A DNA stretch of 64,000 bases from Pectobacterium colocasium (GTDB lineage: Bacteria > Pseudomonadota > Gammaproteobacteria > Enterobacterales > Enterobacteriaceae): the NCBI RefSeq assembly GCF_020181655.1, contig NZ_CP084032.1, positions 1,488,001-1,552,000 of the forward strand. The letters are read 5' to 3'. The notes beneath the pieces are model-generated. The model was not told where the DNA came from. It made no database searches and saw only the letters and a program-made list of their open reading frames with translations. Made by a program: the position numbers and the translations under genes. Shown piece by piece: positions 40,418-59,877 of this stretch. Every line of letters begins with the position of its first letter. Within the stretch, counting starts at the first letter, position 1.

Positions 40418-41554
40418 ATGATAAAGCACAAGTTAAAATTGGCACCCTTAGTCGTGTCACTAGCCTTCCTTAGCGGCTGTACCATAATCCCCGGAAGTCA
40501 TCTATCGACGAGTGGCAAAGAGGTTATTGAGCAGCAAGACGCTGATTTCAATATTGATAAACTCGTTAATGTTTATCCTCTTACGCCTTATCTGGTCGAT
40601 AAAATGCGGCCTAAGCCATTAATCGCACAAACTAATCCTGCATTGGAACGTGAACTACAGCAATATGAGTACCGCATTGGTATTGGTGACGTCATCATGG
40701 TTACCGTGTGGGATCATCCAGAACTCACGACACCCGCAGGAACATATCGCACTGCTGCTGATACGGGGAACTGGGTACACTCCGACGGTACAATCTTCTA
40801 TCCGTATATTGGCAAGGTCAAAGTTGCTGGTAAAACGGTGATGGAAGTGCGTAGTGAAATTTCTTCCCGTTTGGCAACTTATATCGAGTCTCCACAAGTT
40901 GATGTTAATATCGCATCCTTCCGCTCTCAGAAAGCTTATGTCACGGGAGAAGTAAAAACCTCCGGTGAGCAGCCTATCACTAATGTGCCGTTAACGATTT
41001 TGGATGCCATTAACAAGGCTGGCGGATTAAGTGAAGATGCCGACTGGCGTAATATTGTGCTGACGCACAATGGCCAAGAAAAACGCATCTCTCTTCAGGC
41101 TTTGATGCAAAACGGCGACTTATCTCAGAACACACTGTTATATCCTGGAGATATCCTCTATATCCCTCGTAACGACGACTTAAAAGTTTTCGTTATGGGC
41201 GAGGTTAAGAAACAGAGTACGCTCAAGATGGATCGCAGCGGTATGACCTTGACAGAAGCTTTAGGTAACGCTGAAGGTATGGATCAAACGATGGCTGATG
41301 CAACAGGTGTCTTTGTTATCCGTCCCCTAAGAGGAACCCAAGGGCCGAAATTGGCTGATATTTACCAGCTCAATGCTGCCGATGCTACATCCCTTGTGAT
41401 GGGCGCAGAATTCCAGTTACAGCCGTATGATGTAGTCTATGTCACTACTGCACCTGTCGCGCGTTGGAACCGTTTGATTTCACAACTTGCACCGACGATC
41501 TCTGCGTTTAACGATTTGAGTGAAGGTAGCCTGCGAGTTCGTACCTGGCCATAG
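40418..41554 (+). CDS. wza: Wza outer-membrane polysaccharide export channel
   Basis: Octameric outer-membrane lipoprotein through which capsule or exopolysaccharide leaves the cell. 378 aa (379 in E. coli). Lipobox SLAFLSGC puts the lipidated Cys near residue 21. Poly_export and SLBB domains follow: [16 protein letters not shown] and [20 protein letters not shown], then [15 protein letters not shown]; a C-terminal amphipathic stretch forms the pore helix barrel. First of the wza-wzb-wzc export trio. Confidence 0.95.
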
Positions 41555-41562
41555 AGATAATT

Positions 41563-41997
41563 ATGTTTGATTCAATATTAGTTGTCTGTGTAGGTAATAT
41601 TTGTCGTTCCCCTACAGGGGAGAGATTGCTAAAACAGGCATTACCTGCAAAAAAAGTGGCGTCCGCTGGGTTAGGGGCGCTGGTGGGAAAACCCGCTGAC
41701 GCTATGGCAACTGACGTTGCAAATAAATACGATCTTTCTCTTGAAGGACATGTTGCACAGCAGCTAACTTCCGCATTATGTCGGCAGTACGACCTCATTT
41801 TAGTTATGGAGAAAGAGCATATTGAGGCAGTGTGCCGCATTGCTCCTGAGGTTCGTGGTAAGACCATGTTATTCGGTCGTTGGCTGGAGCAACAAGAGAT
41901 CGCGGATCCTTATCGAAAGAGCCGCGAAGCTTTTGAATTTGTCTATTCACAACTTGAGCAGTCTGCCCAGAAATGGGTGCAGGTACTAAGCCGTTAA
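41563..41997 (+). CDS. wzb: Wzb low-molecular-weight protein tyrosine phosphatase
   Basis: Cytoplasmic phosphatase that dephosphorylates the Wzc tyrosine kinase, a cycle needed for high-molecular-weight polymer. 144 aa. The catalytic P-loop CVGNICRSPTGE is at residue 9 (Cys nucleophile, Arg) and the general acid Asp is in IADPYRKS. It starts 8 nt after wza and lies 16 nt before wzc. Confidence 0.95.
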   Translation: MFDSILVVCVGNICRSPTGERLLKQALPAKKVASAGLGALVGKPADAMATDVANKYDLSLEGHVAQQLTSALCRQYDLILVMEKEHIEAVCRIAPEVRGKTMLFGRWLEQQEIADPYRKSREAFEFVYSQLEQSAQKWVQVLSR

Positions 41998-42013
41998 CAA
42001 GTCAGGGAAACCC

Positions 42014-44182
42014 ATGGCAGAGAAAATTTCAGTAAAAACCGCCGATTCAAACGCGGATGAGATTGATTTAGGTCGTTTATTAGGGACATTATTAGATAAC
42101 AGATGGCTAATAATCGGTGTAACGGTAATTTTTCTAATATTCGGTATTCTCTATGCTACGCTGGCAACGCCAATATATAAAGCGGATGCCTTGGTTCAGG
42201 TAGAGAAAAACAGCAGTAATAAGTTAATTAACGATATAACCAGCATGCTACCAGACGCTAAGCCAGAATCGGCAGCGGAGATAGAGTTAATAACTTCTCG
42301 AATGATAATAGGGAAGACCGTTAATGATTTAGCGCTGGATATTAATGTTCAGCAAAATTACTTTCCTTTTTTTGGTAAAGGAATTGCCAGATTGACAGGT
42401 GCCACGAAAGGGGTACTTGCTGTTTCTCGTCTGGATGTACCTGATTCCTGGAAAGATGAACCTATTACGTTAAAGGTTATTGATAATAAAAACTATAGTA
42501 TATCTGCTGGCGATACTGTTCAGTTTGACGGTCAGGTTGGTAAACTAGAACGTCATGATGGGATTACGTTGTTAATTAGTGATATTGCTGCTGATGAAGG
42601 AACAACGTTTAGTATCAAAAAACTTAATCAGTTAACAGCAATTAATAATATACTAAAAACATTGAGTGTCGCTGATAGAGGAAAAGATACGGGCGTCTTA
42701 GCGTTAAGCCTCGAAGGTGAAGACCCGGTACTGACCAATAAAATACTTAATAGTATTAGTGAAAACTATTTACAACAAAATGTCGAACGTAAGTCAGAAG
42801 AGTCTGGGCGCAGCCTTGAGTTTTTAAAGGAACAGTTGCCTAACGTAAGAAGTATATTGGATGAAGCTGATAATAAATTGAATCTGTTTCGCCAGAAAAA
42901 TGAATCAGTAGATTTATCATTAGAAGCTAAATCCGTTTTAGAAACAATGGTTGCTCTAGAGGCTCAGTTAAATGAACTAACATTTAAAGAAGCCGAGATA
43001 TCAAAACTTTATACAAAAGAACACCCTGCTTATCGGGCATTATTAGAAAAACGTAGAACGCTTGAAGAAGAAAAGGAAAAAATTAACAAACGAGTTGGAG
43101 CAATGCCGAAGACGCAACAGGAAATTATTCGGTTAACTCGTGATGTTAAGGCTGGTCAAGAAGTATATATGCAGCTGCTGAACAAACAGCAGGAATTAAG
43201 CATTAATAAAGCCAGCACAGTAGGTAATGTTCGAATCATTGATAGTGCAGTTGTGCAGCTTAAACCCGTTAAGCCTGAGAAAGTATTTATTGTTTTATTA
43301 TCTATAATACTGGGCGGGTTACTCTCTGTATCATTTGTTCTGATAAGAACCATACTGCATAAAGGCATTGAGAGCCCTGAACAGCTTGCTGAGTTGGGTA
43401 TCAGCGTCTATGCAAGTGTGCCGTTGTCAGCTTGGCAACAGAAGAAAGACCGAGCCCTATTAGGGAAGGGTAAAAGAGGCAATACTCGATCTACAGAATT
43501 GCTTGCCGTTGGGAATCCTGCAGATCTCGCGATTGAAGCCATCAGAAGTTTACGCACCAGTCTGCATTTCGCCATGATGGAAGCCAAAAACAATGTGCTG
43601 ATGATCTCTGGTGCAAGCCCTGCGATTGGTAAAACATTCGTCAGTGCGAACCTCGGAGCCGTTATCGCTCAGTCAGGGCAACGAGTACTCATCGTCGACT
43701 GTGATATGCGCAAAGGCTACGCCCATGAGCTGATGGGATGTCAGGGTACAGACGGGCTTTCCGATATACTGTCAGGACAAATTACGACAGAGAAAAGTAT
43801 TCGTAAAACGGCTGTAGAAAATATGGATTTTATCCCTCGTGGACAGATCCCACCTAATCCTTCTGAATTGTTAATGCATAGCCGTTTCTCACAATTCATC
43901 GATTGGGCGACGAAGAACTACGACATTGTGTTGCTGGATACACCTCCAATTCTTGCTGTAACTGATGCTGCTGTTATTAGCAGACATGCTGGAACTTCAC
44001 TTCTGGTTGCTCGCTTTGAGGTGAATACACTGAAAGAAATTGAAGTGAGTATTCGTCGTTTTGAACAGAATGGTACGGAAATCAAAGGTGTTATTCTGAA
44101 TGCGATTGTAAAACGTGCGGCTAGCTACTATAGCTACGGAAATTATGATTATTATTCATACGAATATAAATCAGATAAGTAG
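42014..44182 (+). CDS. wzc: Wzc tyrosine autokinase / polysaccharide co-polymerase
   Basis: Inner-membrane PCP-2a protein controlling polymer length and export with Wza. 722 aa. An N-terminal Wzz domain is flanked by membrane helices (WLIIGVTVIFLIFGILYATL near residue 30 and a second around 425), then comes a cytoplasmic BY-kinase domain with Walker A SGASPAIGKTFVSANLG, Walker A' VLIVDCDMRKG and Walker B VLLDTPP. The C-terminus is a tyrosine cluster (SYYSYGNYDYYSYEY) that is autophosphorylated. A perfect hairpin follows 33 nt after the stop. Confidence 0.95.
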   Translation: MAEKISVKTADSNADEIDLGRLLGTLLDNRWLIIGVTVIFLIFGILYATLATPIYKADALVQVEKNSSNKLINDITSMLPDAKPESAAEIELITSRMIIGKTVNDLALDINVQQNYFPFFGKGIARLTGATKGVLAVSRLDVPDSWKDEPITLKVIDNKNYSISAGDTVQFDGQVGKLERHDGITLLISDIAADEGTTFSIKKLNQLTAINNILKTLSVADRGKDTGVLALSLEGEDPVLTNKILNSISENYLQQNVERKSEESGRSLEFLKEQLPNVRSILDEADNKLNLFRQKNESVDLSLEAKSVLETMVALEAQLNELTFKEAEISKLYTKEHPAYRALLEKRRTLEEEKEKINKRVGAMPKTQQEIIRLTRDVKAGQEVYMQLLNKQQELSINKASTVGNVRIIDSAVVQLKPVKPEKVFIVLLSIILGGLLSVSFVLIRTILHKGIESPEQLAELGISVYASVPLSAWQQKKDRALLGKGKRGNTRSTELLAVGNPADLAIEAIRSLRTSLHFAMMEAKNNVLMISGASPAIGKTFVSANLGAVIAQSGQRVLIVDCDMRKGYAHELMGCQGTDGLSDILSGQITTEKSIRKTAVENMDFIPRGQIPPNPSELLMHSRFSQFIDWATKNYDIVLLDTPPILAVTDAAVISRHAGTSLLVARFEVNTLKEIEVSIRRFEQNGTEIKGVILNAIVKRAASYYSYGNYDYYSYEYKSDK

Positions 44183-44215
44183 TTTCTCTAGGTAAACGTT
44201 CTATTCTTATCCTAT

Positions 44216-44246: not shown

Positions 44247-44397
44247 TGAATTTCATTCCTCACCCTTCATTTAAAATATAATAAATCTACTAAAATAATG
44301 TAACTAAAGCATTAGCAGTCTAAATGCCAAAGTGTTTATTGATTTTTAAACGTGTTAATTAATGAATCATTAGCAATTGCTAAGGTGTGTAACAATC

Positions 44398-45831
44398 ATG
44401 CATTCATTTTTAAATCTTAGAAAAATAAATATAATAAAGTTCTCATTGGCATTTTCAGATTTTTTCTTTTTTAATATTTCCCTAACGCTCACTTTTATTT
44501 TTATTAAGCTATTTGGTTTTAATATATATTCTTTTATCCCAAAGGATGAATTCTTTGCCAGATTTGCTTCGCATGTTGTTTTCTCTGTTATTTGTGTAAG
44601 CTGGTTCTGGGTCAGATTAAGACATTACTCCTATCGTAAACCATTCTGGTTCGAGTTAAAGGAAGTTCTAAGAACCCTGGTTATTTTCTCCATATTGGAT
44701 TTGGCGTTTGTTGCGTTTTCAAAGTGGGATTTTTCCCGATATGTTTGGGTTCTAACGTGGTTTTTTGCGCTGATTTTAGTTCCTTTTGGACGTTCGTTAA
44801 CCAAACGAATTTTAGACAAGTTGAATCTTTGGAAAAAACAAACGGTCATCATTGGAAACGGTAAAAACGCCAGAGATGCCTATGCTGCTTTACAAAGCGA
44901 AGAAATCTTGGGTTTTAGCATAGTGGCGTTTTTTTCAACTAAGAAAAGCGATGATAGCCAGATCTTTAATATTCCTGTTCTCTCTTCGGAAGAGGAACTT
45001 TGGGAACAGTGCTGTTCTGAAGAAACACAGTTCATTGTTGCGGTTGACGCAGAAGATTATGAGCTGAGGGATTATTGGTTAAAATCACTAGCCAAGAAGA
45101 AGTGCCGCTCCGTCTCCGTCATTCCAACGCTGCGCGGCGTTCCTTTATATGGAACTGAAATGTCTTTCATTTTTAGCCATGAAGTCATGATTCTGCGCGT
45201 CAGCAATAATCTGGCTAAAAGAACATCACGAATAGTAAAAAGAACGTTTGATATTGTGGGATCCATCTCTATTATTTTTGTCGCTTCCCCTTTGCTGCTA
45301 TTTTTGGCTTTCTTGATTTCCAAAGATGGTGGCCCAGCTATATATGGGCACGAACGCGTAGGGCGTAATGCAAAGAAATTTAAATGCCTGAAGTTTCGTT
45401 CAATGATTGTCAACTCTCAGGAGGTACTGCAGGAGTTACTCGACAACGATCCTGAGGCAAGGGCTGAGTGGGAAAAAGATTTTAAGTTAAAAAATGATCC
45501 CAGAATCACCAAAGTAGGTAATTTCATCCGGAAGACCAGCCTGGATGAGTTACCGCAATTGTTCAATGTGCTGAAAGGGGAGATGAGCTTGGTTGGCCCT
45601 CGCCCTATTGTTGAGCAAGAGTTGGAGCGCTATGCCGGTGATGTCGACTATTATCTCATGGCAAAGCCAGGAATGACCGGATTATGGCAGGTCAGCGGTA
45701 GAAATGATGTTGATTATGATACCCGAGTGTACTTTGATGCGTGGTATGTAAAAAATTGGTCACTATGGAATGATATCGCTATTTTATTTAAGACAATTAA
45801 TGTTGTCTTAAAAAGAGATGGCGCGTATTAG
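44398..45831 (+). CDS. wbaP: WbaP-type undecaprenyl-phosphate galactose phosphotransferase
   Basis: Initiating polyprenol-phosphate hexose-1-phosphate transferase; WbaP uses UDP-Gal, related WcaJ uses UDP-Glc. 477 aa (about 476 in Salmonella WbaP). Several N-terminal membrane helices, a Rossmann-like middle region (VIIGNGKNARDAYAAL), one further helix (about residue 285), then the catalytic domain with KFRSMI, TSLDELPQLFNVLKGEMSLV and KPGMTGLWQVSGRN. The ATG at 44398 has AAGGTG upstream and gives the family length. Galactose as substrate is favoured by length and the C-terminal match but is not proven. It is separated from ddhD by about 125 bp. Confidence 0.85.
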   Translation: MHSFLNLRKINIIKFSLAFSDFFFFNISLTLTFIFIKLFGFNIYSFIPKDEFFARFASHVVFSVICVSWFWVRLRHYSYRKPFWFELKEVLRTLVIFSILDLAFVAFSKWDFSRYVWVLTWFFALILVPFGRSLTKRILDKLNLWKKQTVIIGNGKNARDAYAALQSEEILGFSIVAFFSTKKSDDSQIFNIPVLSSEEELWEQCCSEETQFIVAVDAEDYELRDYWLKSLAKKKCRSVSVIPTLRGVPLYGTEMSFIFSHEVMILRVSNNLAKRTSRIVKRTFDIVGSISIIFVASPLLLFLAFLISKDGGPAIYGHERVGRNAKKFKCLKFRSMIVNSQEVLQELLDNDPEARAEWEKDFKLKNDPRITKVGNFIRKTSLDELPQLFNVLKGEMSLVGPRPIVEQELERYAGDVDYYLMAKPGMTGLWQVSGRNDVDYDTRVYFDAWYVKNWSLWNDIAILFKTINVVLKRDGAY

Positions 45832-45955
45832 TGATTTATCAAATGAAATCGACATTGGACAGAACATATCAATGTGCATGTTTCATGTTTTGTAATCAGT
45901 ACTAAATCAGCTAATTGAAATTAGTCGAAAGTGTAAATAATAGTTGGCTTCCATT

Positions 45956-46915
45956 ATGACGAATAAAATCACATTAATGCCTTCTGGTGTTGTTTTCGAA
46001 TGTGGCTCAGAAAAAACAATTTTAGATTCAGCAATAGAACAAGGGATTGTTCTGGAACATAGCTGTAAAAATGGTTCGTGTAATGCGTGTGAAGCCCACA
46101 TTCTTGGTCCGCAGGGTGAAGTCCTTACTACCATTTTGACTTGTCAGGTGAAACCTGACTGCGATATGACGCTGGAAGCTGAGTATTATCCAGAACTAGC
46201 GAATATTAAAAGTAAAACAGCACCGTGTAAGGTTGACTCTATAGAATATCCTCATGAGGATATTGCAATTATTACGCTTCGTTTACCACCTACAGCAAAT
46301 CTTACATTCTTGCCTGGGCAATATCTTGATCTGAAGTATCAAGGTATAGCCAGAAGCTACTCAATAGCTTCTATTCCACAAAACAATAGCAAAATTGAGC
46401 TTCATTTAAAGCGAGTGGAAAATGGTGCCATGAGTAGTAAAATATTTGGCCATCTATCTGCTAACCAATTAATGCAGCTTGAAGGACCAAAGGGCACTTT
46501 TTTCTATCGTAACAATGAACACTCAGGACCAATCATATTCCTGGCAACGGGAACAGGATTTGCGCCAATAAAATCGATTGTTACTGATTTACTTAATAAA
46601 GGTATTCAACGGGATATTTACATTTATTGGGGAAATAGAAAAAGTAAATTGTTCTATGACCCTTCCGTTGCGCTGTGGGAAAGCCAGCATGCTAATGTTA
46701 AGTGCAGTCTGGTTCTGTCTCGGCCTGAAGATGATTGGAATGGAAGATATGGTTATGTTCAAGAGTTTGTCGTTGCCGATATTAGCGACTTGAACACAGC
46801 CAGCGTCTATGCTTGTGGAAGCCAATCAATGATTGAGTCAGCAAAAGCGTTATTAATTGAGAATGGACTTCCTGCAGCTAATTTTTACTCAGATGCCTTT
46901 GTTGTATCGGGTTGA
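45956..46915 (+). CDS. ddhD: CDP-6-deoxy-delta-3,4-glucoseen reductase (E3)
   Basis: NADH-dependent flavoprotein that feeds electrons to DdhC during C3 deoxygenation of CDP-4-keto-6-deoxyglucose. 319 aa. The N-terminal plant-type [2Fe-2S] ferredoxin domain has HSCKNGSCNACEAHI (about residues 34-48) and a fourth Cys in LTCQV; it is followed by FAD-binding RSYSIAS and NAD-binding GTGFAPIKS. The ATG at 45956 is chosen; a TTG 12 nt upstream is the alternative. First of ddhD-ddhA-ddhB-ddhC, the same order as in Yersinia and Salmonella dideoxysugar clusters. Confidence 0.92.
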   Translation: MTNKITLMPSGVVFECGSEKTILDSAIEQGIVLEHSCKNGSCNACEAHILGPQGEVLTTILTCQVKPDCDMTLEAEYYPELANIKSKTAPCKVDSIEYPHEDIAIITLRLPPTANLTFLPGQYLDLKYQGIARSYSIASIPQNNSKIELHLKRVENGAMSSKIFGHLSANQLMQLEGPKGTFFYRNNEHSGPIIFLATGTGFAPIKSIVTDLLNKGIQRDIYIYWGNRKSKLFYDPSVALWESQHANVKCSLVLSRPEDDWNGRYGYVQEFVVADISDLNTASVYACGSQSMIESAKALLIENGLPAANFYSDAFVVSG

Positions 46916-47009
46916 ATGATAAAGCGATTAAGAAATATATATTGAATGTATTATTTGTCATCAGCAGATGACAAAAAATTAAAGAGTAGGAACCAACTAG
47001 GAGCGTTCC

Positions 47010-47783
47010 ATGAAAGCGGTGATACTTGCAGGTGGGTTAGGTACCAGACTGAGCGAAGAAACGGTGACTAAGCCTAAGCCCATGGTTGAAATTGGTGGGA
47101 AACCTATCTTATGGCATATCATGAAGATGTACTCTTATCATGGCATAAATGAATTCATCATATGCTGTGGATATAAGGGATATGTTATTAAGGAGTATTT
47201 TGCGAATTATTTCCTGCACATGTCTGATATCACCTTCAATATGAAGGATAATGAAATGACGGTGCTTCAAAAACGTGCAGAGCCCTGGAAGGTTACGCTC
47301 GTCGATACTGGCGATCACTCCATGACTGGAGGCCGCCTGCGCCGCGTTTCTGAATATATTAAAGATGATGAGTGCTTTTGCTTTACCTACGGTGACGGGG
47401 TATGCGGCGTTGATATTCAAGATACGATCGCCTTCCATAAGCGCCATGGTAAGCTTGCTACATTGACGGCGACATTACCGCCGGGTCGTTTCGGAGCACT
47501 CGAATTATCCAATGGACAGGTTCAAAGTTTTAAAGAGAAACCAAAAGGCGATGGTGCCTTGATTAATGGTGGTTTCTTTGTTTTATCTCCTAAGGTGCTG
47601 GACCTCATTGACGGTGACAGCAGCGTTTGGGAACAATCACCTCTGATGACTCTGGCCGCACAGGGTGAGTTGATGGCTTATGAGTACACGGGTTTCTGGC
47701 AGCCAATGGATACGTTGAGAGACAAAATGCTTCTTGATGAACTTTGGCAAAATGATGAGGCTCCTTGGAAAAAATGGGAGTAG
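47010..47783 (+). CDS. ddhA: Glucose-1-phosphate cytidylyltransferase
   Basis: Makes CDP-glucose from CTP and glucose 1-phosphate, the first committed step to CDP-3,6-dideoxysugars. 257 aa, the usual length for RfbF/DdhA. The nucleotidyltransferase signature [20 protein letters not shown] is at residue 8; the conserved [14 protein letters not shown] and the Asp of YGDGVCGVD are also present. A TAGGAGCG ribosome-binding site precedes the ATG. It ends 5 nt before the chosen start of ddhB. Confidence 0.96.
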
Positions 47784-47788
47784 ACAGC

Positions 47789-48880
47789 GTGGTAAATTCA
47801 GCATTTTGGCAAGGCAAAAAAGTCTTCGTGACGGGGCACACTGGCTTCAAAGGTAGTTGGTTATGCCTGTGGCTGCAGAGCATGGGTGCAGAGGTAAAAG
47901 GGTACGCGTTGGAGGCACCGACGACCCCTTCTATTTATCAATCTGCCTGTGTTGAAGAAGGGATGTCCAGCGAAATTGGGGATATCCGTGATTACCAGAA
48001 AATGGAAGACAGTATCAGAGCGTTTGGCCCTGAAATTGTTTTCCACATGGCGGCGCAGCCGCTTGTCAGGCTTTCGTACGATATTCCTGTTGATACTTAC
48101 GCGACGAATGTCATGGGTACTGTGCATTTGCTGGAAGCGGTGCGTAAAATCGGTGGCGTTAAAGCCGTAGTCAATATTACCAGCGATAAGTGCTACGAAA
48201 ACAAAGAATGGGTTTGGGGATATCGTGAGAACGAACCCATGGGTGGCTATGACCCTTACAGTAACAGCAAAGGCTGTGCTGAATTGGTCGCTGCAGCATA
48301 TCGACAGTCATACTTTAACGCTGATAAATATCAGGAACATGGCTGTGCGCTGGCTTCGGTCAGAGCGGGTAATGTGATCGGCGGTGGTGATTGGGCACTT
48401 GATCGTCTTATTCCCGATATTCTTAAGGCATTTGAAGAGCAACGTCCCGTCTTGATTCGCAGTCCGCACGCTATCCGCCCTTGGCAGCATGTGCTTGAGC
48501 CGCTGTCTGGTTATCTCTGCATTGCGCAGGCGCTTTATCTAAACGGTACGGCGTATGCGGAAGGCTGGAACTTTGGGCCGCTAGATGAAGATGCTCAACC
48601 TGTTCAATGGATTGTTGAGAAGATGGTTGGCGCGTGGGGTGACGATGCATCCTGGATTTTGGATGATGGTGAACATCCCCACGAGGCACATTACCTGAAA
48701 CTGGATTGTTCCAAGGCTAAAATGCGCTTGAATTGGGCACCAGTATGGCGGCTTAAAGAGACGCTAAACCGTATTGTTGCCTGGCATAAAGCCTGGTTAG
48801 CCGGTGCGGATATGCGTCAGACTACGCTAAATGAAATACATGATTATATGAAAACTCAAAATGATAAAGGTCACTATTGA
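47789..48880 (+). CDS. ddhB: CDP-glucose 4,6-dehydratase
   Basis: SDR enzyme converting CDP-glucose to CDP-4-keto-6-deoxy-D-glucose. 363 aa from the chosen start. NAD motif [11 protein letters not shown], the ITSDKCY catalytic strand and the YxxxK pair in [11 protein letters not shown] are clear; [12 protein letters not shown] and [13 protein letters not shown] are typical of RfbG/DdhB. A GTG at 47789 is chosen because GGGAG stands 8 nt upstream and it gives the family N-terminus ([16 protein letters not shown]); an in-frame ATG at 47774, inside ddhA, is the alternative. The stop overlaps the ddhC start by one base. Confidence 0.93.
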
Positions 48881-50193
48881 TGAGCACCCAAAACCTAAGA
48901 GAAGACATCGCTAAACTGGTTGAGCAATACGCTAACCAGGCTTTTGCCTCCAAAGTATTTTTGGCCGGTGAGAGTGTCATCCCTCCTGCGGGCAAAGTGA
49001 TCGGTGCTCCAGAAATCAAAATGATGGTCGATGCTTGTCTGGATGGCTGGCTGACAACAGGGCGTTTTAACCGTGAATTTGAACGCCGTTTGGGTGAATT
49101 CCTTGGTGTAAAACACGTTCTGACGACAGTATCTGGTTCTGCTGCTAACCTTCTGGCTCTGGCTACGCTGACTTCCCCTAAACTGGGCGATCGTGCGTTA
49201 AAGGCAGGCGATGAAGTGATTACTGTTGCTGCCGGGTTTCCAACCACGGTTAACCCATCGATTCAGTATGGCTTGATTCCTGTTTTTGTTGATGTTCATA
49301 TTCCTACTTACAATATCGACCCCAGCAAAATTGAAGCGGCAATCAGTGATAAAACCCGTGCGATTATGATCGCGCATACTTTGGGTAATGTGTTTGATTT
49401 ATCAGAAGTTAAGAGAATCGCTGATAAATACAATCTCTGGCTGATTGAAGACTGCTGCGATGCGCTGGGCGCCAAATACAACGGTCAGATCGTTGGTACA
49501 TTTGGTGACATTGCTACCGTCAGTTTCTACCCTGCGCACCATATTACGATGGGTGAAGGCGGTGCTGTCTTTACTAATTCATCCGAATTGAAAACGATCA
49601 CTGAATCTTTCCGCGACTGGGGACGTGATTGTTATTGTGAACCGGGCTGTGATAACACCTGTGGAAATCGATTCGGCCAGAAATTGGGTTCTCTGCCTTT
49701 TGGCTATGACCATAAATATACCTATTCACATGTTGGGTACAATCTCAAAATTTCGGACATGCAAGCGGCATGTGGCCTGGCGCAAATGGATCGTCTGCCT
49801 GATTTTGTAGCGAAACGTAATGCTAACTTCGACTATCTGAAAGCGGGTCTCGCATCATGTGAAGAGTTCATCGAGCTGCCTGAAGCTACACCGAATGCTG
49901 AGCCATCATGGTTCGGTTTCCCGATTACCCTTAAAGAAGAAAGCGGGATTAGTCGTGTTGATCTGATCAAATTCCTGGACGATGCCAAAATTGGTACTCG
50001 TTTATTATTTGCAGGTAACCTGACTCGCCAGCCTTACTTTGAAGGAGTGAAATATCGTGTTGTCGGTGAGTTAACCAATACTGACCGTATCATGAACCAG
50101 ACTTTCTGGATCGGTATTTATCCGGGATTAGATACTGAGCATCTGGATTTTGTGATCGGAAAATTTGAAGAATTCTTTGGGTTGAATTTTTAA
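48880..50193 (+). CDS. ddhC: CDP-4-keto-6-deoxyglucose 3-dehydrase (E1)
   Basis: PMP-dependent, [2Fe-2S]-containing dehydrase that, with DdhD, removes the C3 hydroxyl to give CDP-3,6-dideoxy-4-keto-D-glucose. 437 aa, the same length as RfbH/DdhC. The PLP lysine of aminotransferases is replaced by His220 in [13 protein letters not shown], the hallmark of this enzyme, and the cluster Cys residues are in [16 protein letters not shown]. The ATG at 48880 overlaps the ddhB stop. Its product is the expected acceptor for the ThDP enzyme encoded at 51181. Confidence 0.96.
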
Positions 50194-50204
50194 TTGAAAT
50201 AAAT

Positions 50205-50242
50205 AATAGGCGGATCGTCTTGTATATAGCTATCCGCCTATT
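50205..50242. terminator. Intercistronic hairpin after ddhC
   Basis: Perfect 11-bp inverted repeat AATAGGCGGAT / ATCCGCCTATT with a 16-nt loop, starting 12 nt after the ddhC stop. It is followed by AAATAGATTC with no T tract. It separates the ddh genes from the branched-sugar module, where a TATAAT at 50315 could be a secondary promoter. Confidence 0.45.
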
Positions 50243-50387
50243 AAATAGATTCATCTAAAAAGCATTTTTTAAATCGTAATGTAATTGTGCATGATGGCTA
50301 TCTTACTAATAAGTTATAATCCTATATAGCTACAGCCCAGCCGCTCTATAGTATTAAAATACTACTCTTACTGAAAATATAAATACG

Positions 50388-51161
50388 ATGAAACAGCTTA
50401 ACCCAATAAAGCAAAAGCTTGCCGCAGGTCAGCCCGTTATGGGGATCTGGTCTATTGTATCATCTCCTACCGTCGTTGAAATTTTATCAAGTTCAGGTAT
50501 CGATTTTTTAATACTGGATATGGAACATGGTATTTATGGCGTAGAAGCACTGGAAGCTTGTATTCGGGCTACTGAGGCTGCAGGTGCTTCTCCGATCGTC
50601 CGCGTGCCTGGCATGAACGCCTCCGCAGTACAATGGGCACTGGATCTGGGAAGCCACGGAATAATTGTTCCTCAGGTATTAGGTGAGCAACAAGCTCGAA
50701 TGGCGGTTGAAATGGCCAAATTCTCGCCTGATGGAACGAGAGGTTATAACCCGTTCACGCGTGCAGGTGGCTATGCGAATGCGTCTAGCAATCAAAATGG
50801 TAAATTAGCCAATTCGTTTGGCCTTACTTCAATTATTGTTGAAAATGCGGTTTCTCTTAAAGAAATTAATGAAATCTGCGCTATTGACGATCTTGACATG
50901 ATCTATGTCGGCGTTTATGACCTTTCAATTTCTCTTGGGTATAACGGTAACACACTTCACCCTGAACTGGTTAAAATAGTGGATGACACAGTTAAAACTA
51001 TTCGAAATTCAGGGAAAGCGGCTGGTGTGATGGTTCGGAATGAAAGCGAAATTACTTCTGCACTTAATTTAGGTGCAAATGTACTCGTATATGGCGTCGA
51101 TACATCATTAATCAGACAAGCAATGTCTGCGGCCGTAGACACCTTCAAGCATTCAATATAA
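50388..51161 (+). CDS. HpcH/HpaI-type class II pyruvate aldolase
   Basis: 257-aa metal-dependent aldolase of the HpaI/GarL family, which joins or releases pyruvate and an aldehyde. Active-site residues line up with HpaI: His47 in LDMEHGIYG, Arg72 in VRVPG, metal ligands Glu152 in IVENAV and Asp178 in VGVYDLSISLG, plus the GTRGYNPFTRAGGY phosphate/carboxylate loop. The ribosome-binding site is weak. It opens the branched-sugar module, 19 nt before the ThDP enzyme. Probable role: supplying a 2-keto-acid donor for that enzyme, in addition to or instead of the MhpE-type aldolase encoded downstream. The aldehyde substrate is unknown. Confidence 0.85.
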   Translation: MKQLNPIKQKLAAGQPVMGIWSIVSSPTVVEILSSSGIDFLILDMEHGIYGVEALEACIRATEAAGASPIVRVPGMNASAVQWALDLGSHGIIVPQVLGEQQARMAVEMAKFSPDGTRGYNPFTRAGGYANASSNQNGKLANSFGLTSIIVENAVSLKEINEICAIDDLDMIYVGVYDLSISLGYNGNTLHPELVKIVDDTVKTIRNSGKAAGVMVRNESEITSALNLGANVLVYGVDTSLIRQAMSAAVDTFKHSI

Positions 51162-51180
51162 AAATATATAAGAGGACATC

Positions 51181-52980
51181 ATGAAAATGCGAGTGGCAGA
51201 TTTTATTGTTCAACATCTCCGTAATATCGGTGTTGACACAGTATTTTTACTGAATGGCGGGGGCATGATGCATATGGTCGATGCCTTGGCTCGATGTGAA
51301 GGTATTCGCTATGTTTGTAGCCATCATGAGCAGGCGTCTGCTATTGCTGCTGATGCCTACGCCCGTCTTTCCGGTAAATTAGGGGTCTGCTACGCAACCG
51401 CCGGGCCGGGTGCAACCAACATTCTTACTGGTGTTGTCGGGGCATGGCAAGATAGTTCCCCTGCATTATTTATTACTGGCCAAAGTAAAAGTACACAAAC
51501 AATTGCGCTGTCTGGCATAAAAGGATTGCGCCAATTTGGTACATTTGAAGTGAATACCGTGCCCATCATGGAGAGCGTGACTAAATATAGCCATATGCTG
51601 ACTGATGCGAGCACGATTAAATATCATCTCGAAAAAGCAATACACGAAGCGACCTCGGGCCGACCTGGGCCTGTTTTGCTTGATATTCCGCTGGATATAC
51701 AGGGAGCGCTGATCGATCCTGAAACGTTACAAGGGTTTGTCGACGAGGAACCTGCTGCTGCGTTAGCACCGACGGAAAATGAGATTCAGCAGATTATTAC
51801 GGCTGTTTCGGGAGCCAAACGTCCGGTTATATTAGCGGGTGTAGGCGTGCGGGTGGCGAACGCATCTGAAGCATTTAGAAAACTCATTGAGGAATGGCAA
51901 ATTCCTGTTGTGACAACCCAACTGGGTAAGGATGCTATGTATTATGAGCATCCGCTATTTGTTGGCCATTCGGGTCCCAAAGGCGACAGGGCCGGTAACT
52001 TTGCCGTCCAGACTGCTGATGTTATTTTATCGCTTGGCACGAGTTTACACGGTCAAACGACAGGCTGGGAAAACAAGCTATTTGCCCCTACGGCGACGAA
52101 AATACAAATTGATCTTGATGATGCCGTGCTGGAAAGAGAGCAGATCAATGTCAATCTGAAAGTCAGGGCAGGCGTAGCCGAATTTATTGAGTGCATCAAA
52201 CCTTTTATTACGCCACACGCTTCTGAGAAATGGCGTGCATGCTGCCATAGCTGGAAAACACGTTATCCTGTGCATGCGGAGCCGCATCAGCATGAGGAGG
52301 ACGGTGCGAATTTCTATGATTTTGCAGAAATACTATCGCAGCTTCTGCCTGATAATGCTTGCGTTGTCTCAGATGCAGGATCGGCCTTTTATGTGGCGGG
52401 GCAGGCGATTCGTTTAAAAGACGGGCAGCGCTTTATTTCCTCTGGTTCACTGGGGGCCATGGGTTATGCGCTTCCAGCAGCAAATGGATGCTCGCTGTTT
52501 GACCGCAACCGTCCGATTGTGTGCGTCACTGGCGATGGTTCGCTGATGACAAACGTACATGAGCTCGCCACTATGCGAATGGAGCAGCGTAACGTCAAAT
52601 TGTTCGTGATTAACAATTCTGGCTATGTCTCTATGCGTAATACGCACCGTGAATTCTTCCAGGGATTAATCGTCGGTGCCGATTATGAATCAGGTGTCTT
52701 TATTCCGGCGATGGAGTCTTTGGCGAAGAGCTATGAGCTTCCTTACCTCTGCTGCAAAACGGATGAAGAAATACGCCATACGATCAGAGAAGCATTGGAG
52801 ATGGACGGGCCAGTGCTTGTTGAAGTTATCACAATGAAGAATCAGCGTATTATTCCTACCGTAGCGTCTAAGCGTTTGCCTGACGGCAGAATGGTGTCAA
52901 CGCCTATTCATGAGATGCAGCCTGCTTTACCTGACGATGTTATTGCGAAGGAAATGTCAGCGGCTATTTCTGAGGATTAA
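51181..52980 (+). CDS. YerE-like thiamine-diphosphate C-branch transferase
   Basis: 599-aa acetolactate-synthase-like ThDP enzyme. The catalytic Glu50 is in SHHEQASAIAADAYAR, TAGPGATN and the ThDP/Mg motif GDGSLMTN (451-458) with NN at 478-479 are present, and the central domain has the FAD-type LAGVGVRVANA segment. No ilvN-like small subunit is adjacent. In Yersinia pseudotuberculosis, YerE of this family uses pyruvate to place an acetyl group on C4 of CDP-3,6-dideoxy-4-keto-D-glucose. Here the ddh genes make that acceptor, while the following genes make 4-hydroxy-2-oxopentanoate, so I infer transfer of a 3-hydroxybutanoyl group. Good ribosome-binding site AGAGGACATC; the next gene starts 5 nt after the stop. 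Confidence 0.85.
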   Translation: MKMRVADFIVQHLRNIGVDTVFLLNGGGMMHMVDALARCEGIRYVCSHHEQASAIAADAYARLSGKLGVCYATAGPGATNILTGVVGAWQDSSPALFITGQSKSTQTIALSGIKGLRQFGTFEVNTVPIMESVTKYSHMLTDASTIKYHLEKAIHEATSGRPGPVLLDIPLDIQGALIDPETLQGFVDEEPAAALAPTENEIQQIITAVSGAKRPVILAGVGVRVANASEAFRKLIEEWQIPVVTTQLGKDAMYYEHPLFVGHSGPKGDRAGNFAVQTADVILSLGTSLHGQTTGWENKLFAPTATKIQIDLDDAVLEREQINVNLKVRAGVAEFIECIKPFITPHASEKWRACCHSWKTRYPVHAEPHQHEEDGANFYDFAEILSQLLPDNACVVSDAGSAFYVAGQAIRLKDGQRFISSGSLGAMGYALPAANGCSLFDRNRPIVCVTGDGSLMTNVHELATMRMEQRNVKLFVINNSGYVSMRNTHREFFQGLIVGADYESGVFIPAMESLAKSYELPYLCCKTDEEIRHTIREALEMDGPVLVEVITMKNQRIIPTVASKRLPDGRMVSTPIHEMQPALPDDVIAKEMSAAISED

Positions 52981-52985
52981 TTACC

Positions 52986-53921
52986 ATGCACATTGCGATT
53001 CTCGGGTGTACCAGCCAAATAGCGAAAGATCTTATTCGTTCTATCTATGCTTACAGCCAGCACGATTTGATTCTTTTTGGCCGAACACCTCAGCAAACAC
53101 TGTCGTGGCTTGTTGAAAATGGCATAACGTCACGCTGTAGCGTGAATCAATACGAAGAATATCCAAATATTGATCATGATGTGGTCATTAACTTCGTGGG
53201 TATTGGCGACCCCTCTAAAGCTGCTGCTATGGGGGGAAACATCTTCGATATTACGCTGCACTATGATGAGTTAGTGCTTAATGGGCTAAAAAAACATCCC
53301 GAGCGTCGCTATCTATTCTTATCCAGTGGTGCGGCCTACGGTTCGTCATTTTTAGAACCTGCGGACGTCAACACACCATCAACGATTAATATTAATAATC
53401 TGCTTCCACAAGAATATTATTCAGTCGCAAAACTACATGCTGAATGCAGACACCGGTCGTTGAAAGAGTATGCCATCGTTGATTTACGCGTCTTCAATGT
53501 ATTTAGTCGGACTCAAGATTTGGAAGCGCGCTTTTTCATTACGGATATTGTCAGAGCGATTCAAGCCGGTACAGAGTTGATTACCTCGTCTGATATGATT
53601 TATCGCGATTTTATGCATCCGAAGGATTTCTATCAGTTGGTTGAAAGTGTATTAAAAGCACCACCGATGAATATTTCTCTGGATTGTTATAGTCGCCAAC
53701 CAGTGGATAAAATCACATTACTTGACGAAATGAAAAAGACGTTCGGTTTATCCTATCGTGTTCAGGAATCGAATACGTCCATTAATGCGACGGGTGTTAA
53801 ACCCTACTATTACTCAAAGAACAAAAGAGCTGCCGAGCTCGGCTATCTGCCAGAGTATTCATCTCTTGAAACTATCATTGAGGAGACCAACGCTATTCTT
53901 GGCCTCCAAAAAACAGTCTAG
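52986..53921 (+). CDS. SDR-family NAD(P)-dependent reductase of the branched-sugar module
   Basis: 311-aa extended-type short-chain dehydrogenase with an atypical cofactor loop (ILGCTSQIAKDL at residue 5 instead of GxxGxxG). Catalytic residues: Ser in LSSGAAYG (about 113) and the Tyr145/Lys149 pair in YYSVAK. Its place directly after the ThDP gene, as yerF follows yerE in my recollection of the Yersinia cluster, makes it the best candidate for reducing the ketone of the newly added branch. It could instead act at another sugar carbon. Gap to the next gene 27 nt. Confidence 0.75.
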   Translation: MHIAILGCTSQIAKDLIRSIYAYSQHDLILFGRTPQQTLSWLVENGITSRCSVNQYEEYPNIDHDVVINFVGIGDPSKAAAMGGNIFDITLHYDELVLNGLKKHPERRYLFLSSGAAYGSSFLEPADVNTPSTININNLLPQEYYSVAKLHAECRHRSLKEYAIVDLRVFNVFSRTQDLEARFFITDIVRAIQAGTELITSSDMIYRDFMHPKDFYQLVESVLKAPPMNISLDCYSRQPVDKITLLDEMKKTFGLSYRVQESNTSINATGVKPYYYSKNKRAAELGYLPEYSSLETIIEETNAILGLQKTV

Positions 53922-53948
53922 AGAGAAAAATTCAGTAGAGACTAATAG

Positions 53949-54839
53949 ATGACAAATCTAACTAAGAAAGTACGTGTTGGCATTATTGGTAGCGGTAACA
54001 TTGGTACTGATTTGCTAATCAAAACCATGCGTTCTGAATCGCTTACGTGCACCATTTTTGCTGGAAGAAACTTTAATTCTGCTGGCATGAAACGGGCCAA
54101 TGAGCTGGGAGTACACATTTCAGATCGCGGTATTCAAGCCATTCTGGACGACCCTTCAATTTGTGATGTCGTTTTTGATGCAACGTCTGCTCAGGCGCAT
54201 ATTGAGCACTGGCGCGAACTGGAACAGCTTGATAAAACCGTTATTGATATGACGCCTGCCAAAGTTGGTGGTTTCTGCATTCCAGCGATTAATGCTGAAG
54301 AGATATTGGCGTCAGGTAACCGAAATATCAATATGGTCACCTGCGGCGGACAATCCTCGATTCCAATTGCGAATGCGATTTCTTCTGTTCACCCTGAGTT
54401 TGAATATATCGAAGTGGCATCAAGCATTGCATCACGGAGTGCAGGACCAGCAACACGCGCAAATCTGGATGAGTATATTGATACTACAGAGAAAGCGCTT
54501 AAGCAGTTCACTGGGGCTCAACGAGCGAAAGCCATTCTGATATTAAATCCTGCGGTACCGCCTATTGATATGCAGACGACGATTTACGCCAAGATAGATC
54601 GTCCAAATATTGCTGCAATCGATGCATCGGTAAGAGAAATGGTTGAACGACTAAAACGCTACGTACCTGGATATCAACTGGTGCTGCCGCCAACGCTTGA
54701 TGGCAACCGTGTTATCACCACGGTCAAAGTCATGGGCAATGGCGACTACCTGCCACAATACGCTGGCAACCTTGATATTATTAATTGTGCGGCGATTGCT
54801 GTAACGGAAATGATTTCTTCATTGAGATATGGGAAATAA
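53949..54839 (+). CDS. Acylating acetaldehyde dehydrogenase (MhpF/DmpF family)
   Basis: Interconverts acetaldehyde, CoA and NAD+ with acetyl-CoA and NADH. 296 aa. Rossmann motif GIIGSGNIGTDLL at residue 11, catalytic Cys132 in NMVTCGGQSSIP, and the conserved PAVPPIDMQTTIYA dimer/aldolase interface region. In catabolic meta-cleavage pathways it channels acetaldehyde made by the partner aldolase; here no ring-cleavage genes are present and the same pair sits in a sugar cluster, so reduction of acetyl-CoA to acetaldehyde is the likely direction (inference). The MhpE-type gene follows 4 nt later, as in catabolic operons where the two proteins form a complex. Confidence 0.9.
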   Translation: MTNLTKKVRVGIIGSGNIGTDLLIKTMRSESLTCTIFAGRNFNSAGMKRANELGVHISDRGIQAILDDPSICDVVFDATSAQAHIEHWRELEQLDKTVIDMTPAKVGGFCIPAINAEEILASGNRNINMVTCGGQSSIPIANAISSVHPEFEYIEVASSIASRSAGPATRANLDEYIDTTEKALKQFTGAQRAKAILILNPAVPPIDMQTTIYAKIDRPNIAAIDASVREMVERLKRYVPGYQLVLPPTLDGNRVITTVKVMGNGDYLPQYAGNLDIINCAAIAVTEMISSLRYGK

Positions 54840-54843
54840 GACG

Positions 54844-55875
54844 ATGGCGAAGAAAATTCTATTATGTGATCCAACTCTCCGTGATGGTAATCATGCTGTA
54901 AGACATCAACTGACGCGTGAAAGCTTTGCAGCCTATTGTCAGGCCGCTGAGGCCGCTAATGTCCCCGTCGTGGAAGTCGGCCACGGTAATGGTCTGGGTG
55001 CATCGTCAATGCTTGTTGGCGAATGCTTGCTGAGCGATGAAGATATTTTTACCATCTCGCGTGAGCACTTGCATAAATCTCGCATGGCCATTCACTTGAT
55101 TCCTGGCTTTTGTACTATCAAGAAAGATCTGACCCGTGCGCTGGATCTTGGCGTAGATTTATTCCGCGTTGCATCGCATTGTACCGAAGCTGATATCACC
55201 GATCGCCATATTCATTTTGTCAGGAATTCGGGCAAAGAGGCGTGGGGGATTTTGATGATGAGTCATATGACTTCTCCTGCGGTTCTTTTAGAAGAAGCCA
55301 GAAAAATGGAGTCCTATGGTGCGGAAGCGATTGTTATCATGGATTCTGCAGGGGCATATTTCCCAGATGATGTGAAAGAGCGTATTTCGACTCTGGTTAA
55401 TGGGCTAACTGTACCTGTCGGTTTTCACGGTCATAATAATCTGGGTATGTCAGTTATTAACTCAGTGGTGGCGGTGCAAGAAGGCGCAACCATTATTGAC
55501 GGCACTATTCGTGGATTTGGTGCCGGCGCAGGAAATACCCAGTTAGAAGTATTGGTGGCTGTGTTTGAACGTTTGGGTTACGAAACAGGGATCGATCTCT
55601 ATAAAATTCTGGATGCAGCAGATATCGCTGAAAAAGGGTTTAATCCTGTCGCACCGTCAATATCGCCTTTATCGATTGTAAGTGGCCTTGCCGGGGTATT
55701 TTCAGGATTCGCCAAGCCAGTGGCAAAAGCGGCAAAAGATTATAATGTTGATCCCAGAGATATCTTTTTTGGGCTGGGTGAGCGTAAAGCGGTTGCTGGC
55801 CAGGAAAGCTTGATTTACGAAGTTGCACAAGATCTTGCCAAGCGTAATGAAAACTCCGTTAAAAAGGGACAATAA
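54844..55875 (+). CDS. 4-hydroxy-2-oxovalerate aldolase (MhpE/DmpG family)
   Basis: Divalent-metal aldolase joining or splitting pyruvate and acetaldehyde (4-hydroxy-2-oxopentanoate). 343 aa. Active-site residues are visible: Arg13, Asp14 and His17 in DPTLRDGNHAVRHQ and metal ligands His195 and His197 in VGFHGHNNLG; the C-terminal communication domain SPLSIVSGLAGVFSGF is conserved. The ATG at 54844 is chosen (GGGAAATAAG upstream); an ATG at 54829 inside the preceding gene is the alternative. It pairs with the acylating dehydrogenase and, in this context, probably runs in the synthetic direction to make the donor for the ThDP enzyme. Confidence 0.9.
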   Translation: MAKKILLCDPTLRDGNHAVRHQLTRESFAAYCQAAEAANVPVVEVGHGNGLGASSMLVGECLLSDEDIFTISREHLHKSRMAIHLIPGFCTIKKDLTRALDLGVDLFRVASHCTEADITDRHIHFVRNSGKEAWGILMMSHMTSPAVLLEEARKMESYGAEAIVIMDSAGAYFPDDVKERISTLVNGLTVPVGFHGHNNLGMSVINSVVAVQEGATIIDGTIRGFGAGAGNTQLEVLVAVFERLGYETGIDLYKILDAADIAEKGFNPVAPSISPLSIVSGLAGVFSGFAKPVAKAAKDYNVDPRDIFFGLGERKAVAGQESLIYEVAQDLAKRNENSVKKGQ

Positions 55876-55877
55876 TA

Positions 55878-56933
55878 ATGAAAACATCATCATTGTCAGA
55901 ATGTCGTTCAGATTGCTTGCTGGCCTGTGCTGAGGCTGAGGACGTAAGAAAGGTACTAGCTGGAAAGCATATCAGCATGACCGGAGGAACTGGATTCCTC
56001 GGTACCTGGATTGCTGAAATGATATCGGCACTGAACGATGAATATAATGCGGGCATTACGTTAGACATCTATGCTACCCGAGTTCAGGAGTGGCCGAGAC
56101 GATTACCGCATTTGGCTTCAAGATCGGATATCAACATTTATACTCAGGATGTCAGATCGCCTTTTGAGTTTGCAAAAGCAACGAATTTTATTATTCATGC
56201 CGCAGGTATTCCCAATACGCGCGTTCATTCATCAGATCCCCTGAGAGTTTATGAAACGACGGTCACTGGGACTGCAAACTGTCTGGAAGCGGCGACCAAA
56301 CTTGGTTCGCTTATTCGGATGGTTAATGTCAGTTCATGTCTGGTAAATGGCCAACCCGATCGTCCTGGATCAACAGCAGAGGATGATACATTTATACAGC
56401 GTGCCGGTGAATTGCACGGTGTGTATGCCGAAGCCAAGCGTGCCTCTGAAACCGTAGCGGCTATCTACCGCAATCAGCATCGTCTGCCTATTTCTACCGT
56501 TCGACCATTTACGTTGGCTGGTCCTTATCATGAGCTTGATCTGCCGTGGGCGATTAATAACTTTATGAGGGATGCGCTCAATGGTTCGACAGTTCGCATC
56601 CATGGCGACGGTAATGTCCGCAGAAGTTATTTATACGGTAGTGATGCAGCCTGGTGGACACTGACTGCTTTGGCAAAAGGAGGAGATGGTGAAGTTTATA
56701 ATCTGGGGAGCGCCCATTCAATGAGCCATATTGAGCTTGTTAAGATGATTGGCGATCTTCTTGGGAAAGAACTCAATGTCGAGATTAATACCAACCCTGC
56801 TAAAAAGAATAAAGTTGATGATTTATACCCTAATACGCAACGTGTATCACAGCGACTTAAGGTTACAGAAACTGTAGATAGCTTAGGCATTCTTCGAAAA
56901 ATGTACGCGTGGCACAAATCTTCTGCTAAATAG
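55878..56933 (+). CDS. NAD-dependent epimerase/dehydratase-family SDR
   Basis: 351-aa extended SDR. The classical NAD motif TGGTGFLGTW starts at residue 35, after an unusual 30-residue N-terminal extension containing three Cys. Catalytic Ser in VSSCLVNG and Tyr183/Lys187 in VYAEAK are intact. The fold and C-terminal pattern (GDGNVRRSYLYGSDAAWW, VYNLGS) are those of nucleotide-sugar 4-epimerases, reductases and 4,6-dehydratases. It starts 2 nt after the aldolase gene, so it is part of the branched-sugar module; it may finish or epimerise the CDP-branched sugar or serve another sugar of the repeat. The exact reaction cannot be told. Confidence 0.75.
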   Translation: MKTSSLSECRSDCLLACAEAEDVRKVLAGKHISMTGGTGFLGTWIAEMISALNDEYNAGITLDIYATRVQEWPRRLPHLASRSDINIYTQDVRSPFEFAKATNFIIHAAGIPNTRVHSSDPLRVYETTVTGTANCLEAATKLGSLIRMVNVSSCLVNGQPDRPGSTAEDDTFIQRAGELHGVYAEAKRASETVAAIYRNQHRLPISTVRPFTLAGPYHELDLPWAINNFMRDALNGSTVRIHGDGNVRRSYLYGSDAAWWTLTALAKGGDGEVYNLGSAHSMSHIELVKMIGDLLGKELNVEINTNPAKKNKVDDLYPNTQRVSQRLKVTETVDSLGILRKMYAWHKSSAK

Positions 56934-57128
56934 TGGAGATGAGAAACCTTACGTTTCTTACGGGTGTGTAATTGCATGCTATCTGTCACAGATATTTATT
57001 TCTGATGTCTTATTTCTATATCATTTTATATATCGTCATTGACGACTAAATTGAGATGCTGACTTTTGCATCGATTCGGTTTCCTCGATTTTATATTGAG
57101 GTTTTTTGTTGTGATTTTTTAAGAAAAT

Positions 57129-57155: not shown

Positions 57156-57177
57156 AATGAAATAGAAGAAGAGCAAG

Positions 57178-59862: not shown

Positions 59863-59877
59863 TTTTTATAAGATTAT

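Follow-up and report, generated by a model that had tools for sequence, protein, structure and literature searches.

A probable CDP-erwiniose pathway with a variant DmpFG pair in an exopolysaccharide locus of Pectobacterium colocasium

What does a surface polysaccharide locus make with two pyruvate aldolases, a coenzyme A (CoA)-acylating acetaldehyde dehydrogenase and a thiamine diphosphate (ThDP) enzyme? The question is raised by a stretch of 64,000 nucleotides of Pectobacterium colocasium (contig NZ_CP084032.1, positions 1488001-1552000 of the 4,912,018-base chromosome), here called the window, in which ten genes stand in tandem from ddhD to SDR2, the second of two short-chain dehydrogenase/reductase (SDR) genes. 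All ten open reading frames are intact and lie on the + strand; their order is the one given in an initial annotation, and their family matches fit the functions it assigned. Taken as a whole, the set is likely to be the cytidine diphosphate (CDP)-erwiniose pathway of a Pectobacterium exopolysaccharide. That the product is CDP-erwiniose is highly probable, and that DmpF and DmpG make the donor of its four-carbon branch is very probable. The evidence consists of gene content, conservation, a residue pattern and a broad fit to a published repeat unit; the stereochemistry of the donor, the SDR that acts and an accessory place for the HpaI-type aldolase are predicted.

The proposed route would begin with ddhA-B-C-D, which would supply CDP-3,6-dideoxy-4-keto-D-glucose. 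DmpF would convert acetyl-CoA into acetaldehyde and hand it to the DmpG variant, which would join it with pyruvate; the product, 4-hydroxy-2-oxopentanoate, is predicted to have the (4R) configuration. An ErwE-type ThDP enzyme would decarboxylate this acid and attach the remaining 3-hydroxybutanoyl unit at C4 of the ketosugar. The new ketone would then be reduced by one of the SDRs, with SDR2 the likelier of the two, to yield CDP-erwiniose, and a glycosyltransferase of the locus would add erwiniose to the side chain. The initial annotation had drawn a scheme with one aldolase and one reductase, of which the chemistry is very probably right; the conserved HpaI-type protein and the second SDR are left unexplained by it.

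How firmly can the genes be assigned? The glucose-1-phosphate cytidylyltransferase ddhA (47010..47783), the CDP-glucose 4,6-dehydratase ddhB (47765..48880) and the CDP-6-deoxy-4-ketoglucose 3-dehydrase ddhC of the RfbH family (48877..50193) score 472 bits on TIGR02623, 512 bits on TIGR02622 and 756 bits on NF011936, against curated cut-offs of 300, 278 and 423. The reductase partner of ddhC, ddhD (45944..46915; 2Fe-2S/FAD/NAD), has the Pfam architecture Fer2, FAD_binding_6 and NAD_binding_1 and exceeds no cut-off among the best 25 of 27 matching NCBIfam models; the start at 45956 given initially is an ATG within the reading frame that opens at TTG 45944. The next six genes are separated by 19, 5, 27, -11 and 2 bases, spaced as in one operon. 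They encode the HpaI-type class II pyruvate aldolase (50388..51161; PF03328, 100 bits, cut-off 25), the putative ErwE-type ThDP enzyme for four-carbon acyl transfer to C4 of the CDP-4-ketosugar (51181..52980), SDR1 (52986..53921), the CoA-acylating acetaldehyde dehydrogenase DmpF (53949..54839; TIGR03215, 420 bits, cut-off 282), the DmpG variant, a 4-hydroxy-2-oxopentanoate aldolase (54829..55875), and SDR2 (55878..56933). DmpG scores 371 bits on TIGR03217 (cut-off 286) and 449 bits on NF006049 (cut-off 229), and has both the HMGL (PF00682) and the communication domain (PF07836). The HpaI-type protein falls far under the cut-off of all four NCBIfam equivalogs that it touches (HpaI, 155 bits against 369; GarL, 138 against 407; RhmA, 133 against 441, among them). 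All three Pfam TPP domains are present in the ThDP enzyme, which is under the cut-off of the best 25 of 54 matching NCBIfam models. Both SDRs are extended SDRs of the nucleotide-sugar type that match the Pfam Epimerase family; SDR1 has no NCBIfam match, and SDR2 has matches with none over its cut-off.

Could these genes stand together by chance? The order ddhA-B-C-HpaI-ThDP-SDR1-DmpF-DmpG-SDR2 is identical in all six distinct loci with an ErwE-type ThDP enzyme, down to 54% protein identity, which excludes a chance association; the co-occurrence with ddh that the initial annotation had suggested looking for across genomes is there. The carriers outside Pectobacterium are BJB404 (locus L003, in the same genome as G697), G1017, G789 and G1002, at 54-85% identity; L003 and L059 are one locus and count once among the six. 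The GDG cofactor motif of the ThDP enzyme, the YxxxK motif of both SDRs and the Cys in TCGGQ of DmpF are kept in 6/6 loci, the latter two motifs presumably in their usual roles. An ErwE-type protein of at least 96% identity occurs in 2 of 25 genomes of the genus, 2 of a family sample of 295 and 2 of a phylum sample of 398, the same two each time, and at 63-69% identity in 4 of 392 genomes from the family of an Oxalobacteraceae carrier, the carrier counted. E. coli genomes gave no megablast match, and plasmids no match of at least 60% to the ThDP protein.

Is such chemistry known? In its section on the enzyme, a 2025 review reports that ErwE of Pectobacterium atrosepticum rejects pyruvate and couples 4-hydroxy-2-oxo acids to a CDP-dideoxyketosugar towards erwiniose; the activity was demonstrated in vitro, with a ketone analogue standing in for the sugar and 4-hydroxy-2-oxo acids as donors (PMC12247030). 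Erwiniose is described as a 10-carbon branched sugar (PMC8657720; PMC9671505) and is found in the published P. atrosepticum polymer (PMC8657720). In the portions drawn on here, these sources bear out what had been proposed for the window from its letters: a 4-hydroxy-2-oxo acid and not pyruvate as donor (PMC12247030), CDP-3,6-dideoxy-4-keto-glucose as acceptor (PMC12247030), a product skeleton of 6 + 4 carbons (PMC8657720; PMC9671505) and a tie to a Pectobacterium polysaccharide (PMC8657720). The accompanying remark that no biosynthesis had been described was mistaken, since ErwE of P. atrosepticum is already reported (PMC12247030). The central idea is thus in print for a sister species, and the pathway, a known one, is present intact both in a second species of Pectobacterium and in genomes of the Oxalobacteraceae type.

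The window is linked to the published system through genome G151. Gene for gene, the two loci are 88-99% identical over the part that runs from wza to the final transferase of the window, and the ThDP proteins at the same locus position are 96% identical. The asparaginase of G151 is identical over 327 residues to PDB 1zcf, which we take to be the Erwinia carotovora enzyme. The two best homologues of the window HpaI-type protein come from P. atrosepticum SCRI1043 (96%) and P. aroidearum (89%); the G151 protein differs from that of SCRI1043 at 2 of 257 positions, the window protein at 9 of 257. Asparaginase identity and HpaI differences together indicate that G151 is P. atrosepticum or very near to it. 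From the 96% identity we infer that the window ThDP enzyme also uses 4-hydroxy-2-oxo acids and not pyruvate. The ErwE system of P. atrosepticum and that of the window share the genus, the locus gene for gene, and the expected acceptor and donor type. They differ in species, and the part of the review's section on ErwE considered here is without DmpFG donor supply, its stereochemistry or HpaI (PMC12247030).

An ordinary YerE, making yersiniose with DmpFG and HpaI as catabolic passengers, would share family and acceptor with the window ThDP enzyme, which is encoded beside the genes for CDP-3,6-dideoxy-4-ketoglucose. We regard this explanation as very improbable: DmpFG is kept inside the operon in 6/6 loci and belongs to a non-canonical clade, and the PDB matches of the ThDP enzyme are distant (JanthE, 8rph, 366 bits; 5ahk, which we take to be Pseudomonas YerE, 242 bits). 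In addition, ErwE is reported not to use pyruvate, in the section of the review already named (PMC12247030). The erwiniose route resembles that of yersiniose A in Yersinia pseudotuberculosis in its ddhA-D precursor, in ThDP-dependent transfer to C4 and in later reduction of the ketone, as well as in C4 configuration if the name that we assume for erwiniose (see below) is right. Whereas YerE moves two carbons from pyruvate, the window route is expected to move a four-carbon hydroxyacyl unit and has dedicated donor enzymes. A yersiniose-type comparator was sought in the genus; the nearest other ThDP locus (L082, in G295) is a different island, and a YerF-like SDR could not be distinguished. That island (3335-14505) holds a YerE/JanthE-like ThDP enzyme, 33% identical, next to large glycosyltransferases, a NeuB-like gene, an AMP-ligase and genes of the acyl reductase and acyl-protein synthetase-like kinds, all assigned by eye without profiles; it is a different system, possibly one of flagellar or surface glycosylation.

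Does the rest of the locus fit an erwiniose-containing polymer? The P. atrosepticum polysaccharide is reported to have a galactose-mannose-rhamnose backbone, an erwiniose-galactose side chain and acetylated galactose (PMC8657720). The locus holds WbaP and four family 1/2 glycosyltransferases, of which three lie in the window and the fourth just past its end, together with an acyltransferase, manC, cpsG and rmlA/C/D. WbaP, the four glycosyltransferases, the acyltransferase and the mannose, rhamnose and galactose precursor genes would suffice for five residues and a single acetyl group. The comparison with polysaccharide chemistry that had been recommended comes out as a broad fit to this repeat unit, as far as the report was drawn on (PMC8657720). 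Could the product instead be a C4-branched relative of erwiniose that carries an additional change, introduced for example by HpaI and the second SDR? Both are conserved though surplus to the minimal route, and other branched sugars built by the same logic are caryophyllose, gastriose and ropiose, as given in the review's pages used here (PMC12247030). In the part of the polymer report used here, however, erwiniose is the sole unusual sugar in the polymer of P. atrosepticum (PMC8657720), whose SCRI1043 strain has the 96% identical HpaI; the strains of both reports may differ. A modified relative of erwiniose therefore seems improbable to us.

Which of the two aldolases makes the donor? The HpaI-type protein has the active site of a class II pyruvate aldolase: D42, H45, R70, E149 and D175, for metal binding and catalysis, are kept in 120/120 nearest homologues. 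It shares these residues with the HpaI/YfaU aldolases and departs from them in its pocket, where Q147 is replaced by Ile and GPAD by GVYD; it shares 27% identity with the other member of the family in this genome. Its gene adjoins the ThDP gene in 6/6 loci. The lists of ThDP and HpaI matches share 35 exact longest-contig sizes (of 113 and 84, sizes at least 3000), against a mean of 0.43 and a maximum of 3 in an offset control, a comparison of contig sizes and not of contigs themselves; this suggests that the two genes often travel together. HpaI might then condense acetaldehyde and pyruvate to the (4R) acid, with DmpG serving mainly as the docking partner of DmpF. Intact active-site residues, the neighbouring ThDP gene and the shared contig sizes speak for this, and E. 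coli HpaI makes both isomers of 4-hydroxy-2-oxopentanoate, according to the portion of the source we draw on (PMC8560999). We nevertheless think it unlikely, since DmpG retains its own catalytic residues (below) and DmpFG also occurs with ddh where HpaI does not. Three further ddh-DmpFG-SDR2 loci (L113 in G360, L114 in G375, L115 in G566) are without HpaI, both in the stretches read and in their genomes at E 1e-10 (G566 is 68% complete). In the loci compared, DmpFG thus follows the pathway in its wider form and HpaI keeps to the ErwE clade. With HpaI present in 6/6 ErwE-type loci and missing from three distant ddh-DmpFG loci, the donor is likely to come from DmpFG, and the additional presence of HpaI is unexplained; HpaI may be accessory, as a second source of donor or for removal of the wrong isomer. 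The ThDP enzymes of G360, G375 and G566 are only 31-39% identical to that of the window, and the one of G360 (33%) is encoded on a separate contig. At such distances the sugars may not be erwiniose; these loci probably make other long-branched sugars.

The nine ddh-DmpFG loci also bear on the reductase. SDR2 is present in 9/9 and is for this reason the better ketoreductase candidate. SDR1 is present in 8/9: it is cut off by the contig end in G566, and none was seen in 18.9 kb around the G375 locus. A sequence search of the PDB found nothing for SDR1 at 1e-5 and, for SDR2, general nucleotide-sugar SDRs only (7 sequences at 1e-15). Structure models of SDR1 (predicted local distance difference test, pLDDT, 72; 7 sequences) and SDR2 (pLDDT 84; 9 sequences) gave broad extended-SDR matches only. 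The highest query-normalised TM-score of the SDR2 model among the 50 matches listed (0.83) is to a Campylobacter reductase that makes CDP-glucitol, a likeness that may be taken as a hint.

We are further interested in the stereochemistry of the donor. DmpFG and BphIJ of meta-cleavage catabolism share with the window pair the aldolase-dehydrogenase partnership, the catalytic residues and the communication domain of DmpG. In contrast to them, the window pair is predicted to run in the synthetic direction, belongs to a separate clade and has His for Leu and Phe for Tyr at two positions. In the alignment with PDB 1nvm these are Leu88 and Tyr291 of DmpG, which correspond to BphI 87 and 290 because an offset of one puts Leu, Leu and Tyr at BphI 87, 89 and 290, as they are named in the text used from PMC3962088. 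His87 and Phe290 are found in the window protein, in 120/120 nearest homologues (the window's own among them) and in 6/6 loci, and the Leu87 and Tyr290 of the strictly (4S) BphI type are absent from them. Leu87 and Tyr290 are found in 11/11 canonical members of the family sample (those with loci among 14 over-cut-off match rows outside the window; "canonical" here says nothing of a catabolic role) and in all 3 PDB sequences used, of 4 matched. The window protein, with 371 bits on TIGR03217, is set apart from the other over-cut-off rows of the family sample at 559-599 bits.

We take R16, D17, H20, H199 and H201 (BphI numbers) to be the catalytic residues of this family. All five are kept in the window DmpG and in 28/28 phylum loci examined; among the 120 homologues, H199 is kept in 119 and the other four in all. 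DmpG occurs at E 1e-60 in 33 of 388 phylum-sample genomes. The 28 loci (L085-L112, those among 38 match rows besides the window and G151) comprise five with His87, where residue 290 is Phe in three, Val in one and Cys in one, and 23 with Leu (22) or Ile (1) at 87, all with Tyr290. A quick tree of 63 sequences (15 of the 120 homologues included), built with the two columns removed, has the 26 His rows all falling to the same side of a branch that carries a Shimodaira-Hasegawa-like approximate likelihood ratio (SH-aLRT) of 99, so that a single change accounts for them; the long branches L087-L089 and 4lrs may be misplaced, and we are unsure how deep the His clade is. Two DmpG proteins (L090 in G641, L092 in G335) form a third small group with its own long branch, having GYANVYGGY in place of GYAGVYSSF.

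What would this exchange do? BphI uses and makes only the (4S) acid; Y290F loses this control, and L87N/Y290F and L87W/Y290F use only the (4R) acid, as reported in the portion of the review drawn on (PMC3962088). By analogy, we lean towards the view that the DmpG variant is (4R)-selective. The expected sugar can be set against this. We assume that erwiniose is 3,6,8-trideoxy-4-C-[(R)-1-hydroxyethyl]-D-gulo-octose. Worked from that name, C7 is R, C5 is S and C4 is the same as in D-xylo yersiniose A; C5 of the D-gluco precursor is R, like the hydroxyethyl carbon. The assumed name therefore requires a (4R) donor (C7 being R), and it agrees with the route at two checkable centres, the agreement at C4 presupposing that ErwE and YerE add to the same face. 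For yersiniose A, PMC4753412 has (7R) in its text and [(S)-1-hydroxyethyl] in two of the titles that it cites; only the D-xylo C4 is used from it here. In the open-licence literature searched we did not meet this stereochemical idea in print.

The His87 type is not confined to ddh loci. L116 (G430; 7572-12113) and L117 (G471; 7988-11165) hold His87-type DmpF-DmpG pairs beside a class I/II aminotransferase, and L116 also encodes an ATP-grasp protein that has an L-amino acid ligase domain. Their gene content suggests that they make a 4-hydroxynorvaline-type amino acid or dipeptide; such pairs would fit a biosynthetic clade, though not a mark of sugar pathways only. It is tempting to propose that sugar-branching bacteria use a natural stereo-inverted branch of DmpFG in the synthetic direction for a dedicated supply of (4R)-4-hydroxy-2-oxopentanoate, with His87/Phe290 near the engineered Asn87/Phe290, and that the branch also feeds amino-acid pathways; we consider this proposal evenly balanced between right and wrong.

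Several points weigh against our reading. As to the donor, the BphI pairs with published data are Asn/Phe and Trp/Phe, not His/Phe, in the part of the review used (PMC3962088). Two of the five distant His87 proteins carry Val or Cys at 290, His87 is also present in the two DmpFG loci without ddh that adjoin an aminotransferase (G430 and G471), and His87 and Phe290 cannot be singled out because they mark a whole clade with many other changes. The selectivity of DmpG would be moot if ErwE accepts both isomers, and the name assumed for erwiniose was not found in the open-licence literature searched. As to the pathway, HpaI and one SDR are conserved without a required step, the link from the window to the published ErwE runs via the G151 protein, and the polymer of the window strain is one predicted from its genes. 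As to the repeat unit, the WecA-like transferase (39167-40294) is unaccounted for by the published structure, and no rmlB was seen among the open reading frames listed in the stretch beyond the window.

In the window the surrounding locus, like the ten genes, lies on the + strand. It is preceded by an exact match to GGCGGTAGCGT (39158..39168), presumably an ops/JUMPstart-type element; with 1 mismatch allowed, this sequence occurs 4 times in the window, where shuffles give 0.78 on average. The WecA-like polyprenyl sugar-1-phosphate transferase of glycosyl transferase family 4 (39167..40294; PF00953, 104 bits, cut-off 27) is a second possible initiator. Its reading frame as called opens at 39167 with a GTG that lies inside the ops element, so the true start is probably further on. 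The export protein wza, the phosphatase-like wzb and the Wzz/kinase wzc follow (40418..44182), assigned by NF011658, by eye and by Pfam domains, respectively, and 94-98% identical to their G151 counterparts. The initiator of the repeat unit, a WbaP-type undecaprenyl-phosphate galactose phosphotransferase (44377..45831; TIGR03022, 568 bits, cut-off 403), stands before ddhD. Downstream of SDR2 are wzx (57178-58497), a GT2-family transferase (58448-59239), a hexapeptide acyltransferase (59236-59862), a GT1-family transferase (59878-61023), wzy (61020-62222) and a second GT1-family transferase (62165-63364); wzx and wzy, which match no Pfam family, were assigned by eye on the basis of their size, hydrophobicity and position, and the others by Pfam. 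Beyond the window the locus continues with one more glycosyltransferase, manC, cpsG, rmlD, rmlC, rmlA and galF, and galE is present elsewhere in the window, outside the locus. The guanine plus cytosine fraction is 0.34-0.40 at 44000-46000 (the initiating transferase) and at 56000-64000 (the transport and transferase part), against 0.43-0.48 over 46000-56000, the stretch of the ddh and branching genes; by this contrast the polysaccharide locus is a mosaic.

Through this locus a compact operon can be connected with a rare ten-carbon sugar of the cell surface, and the four-carbon branch of the sugar is given a probable origin. The locus also leaves a sharp question: why does the ErwE clade, in all six loci, carry a second pyruvate aldolase? 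If the stereochemical prediction is true, the DmpG variant would offer synthesis a natural pyruvate aldolase that is (4R)-selective and coupled to acetyl-CoA, and His87 with a residue other than Tyr at 290 would be a sequence mark that parts a probably biosynthetic clade from canonical DmpG. A stereo-inverted branch of this kind, if real, would show that a fold best known from the breakdown of pollutants is put to biosynthetic use more widely.

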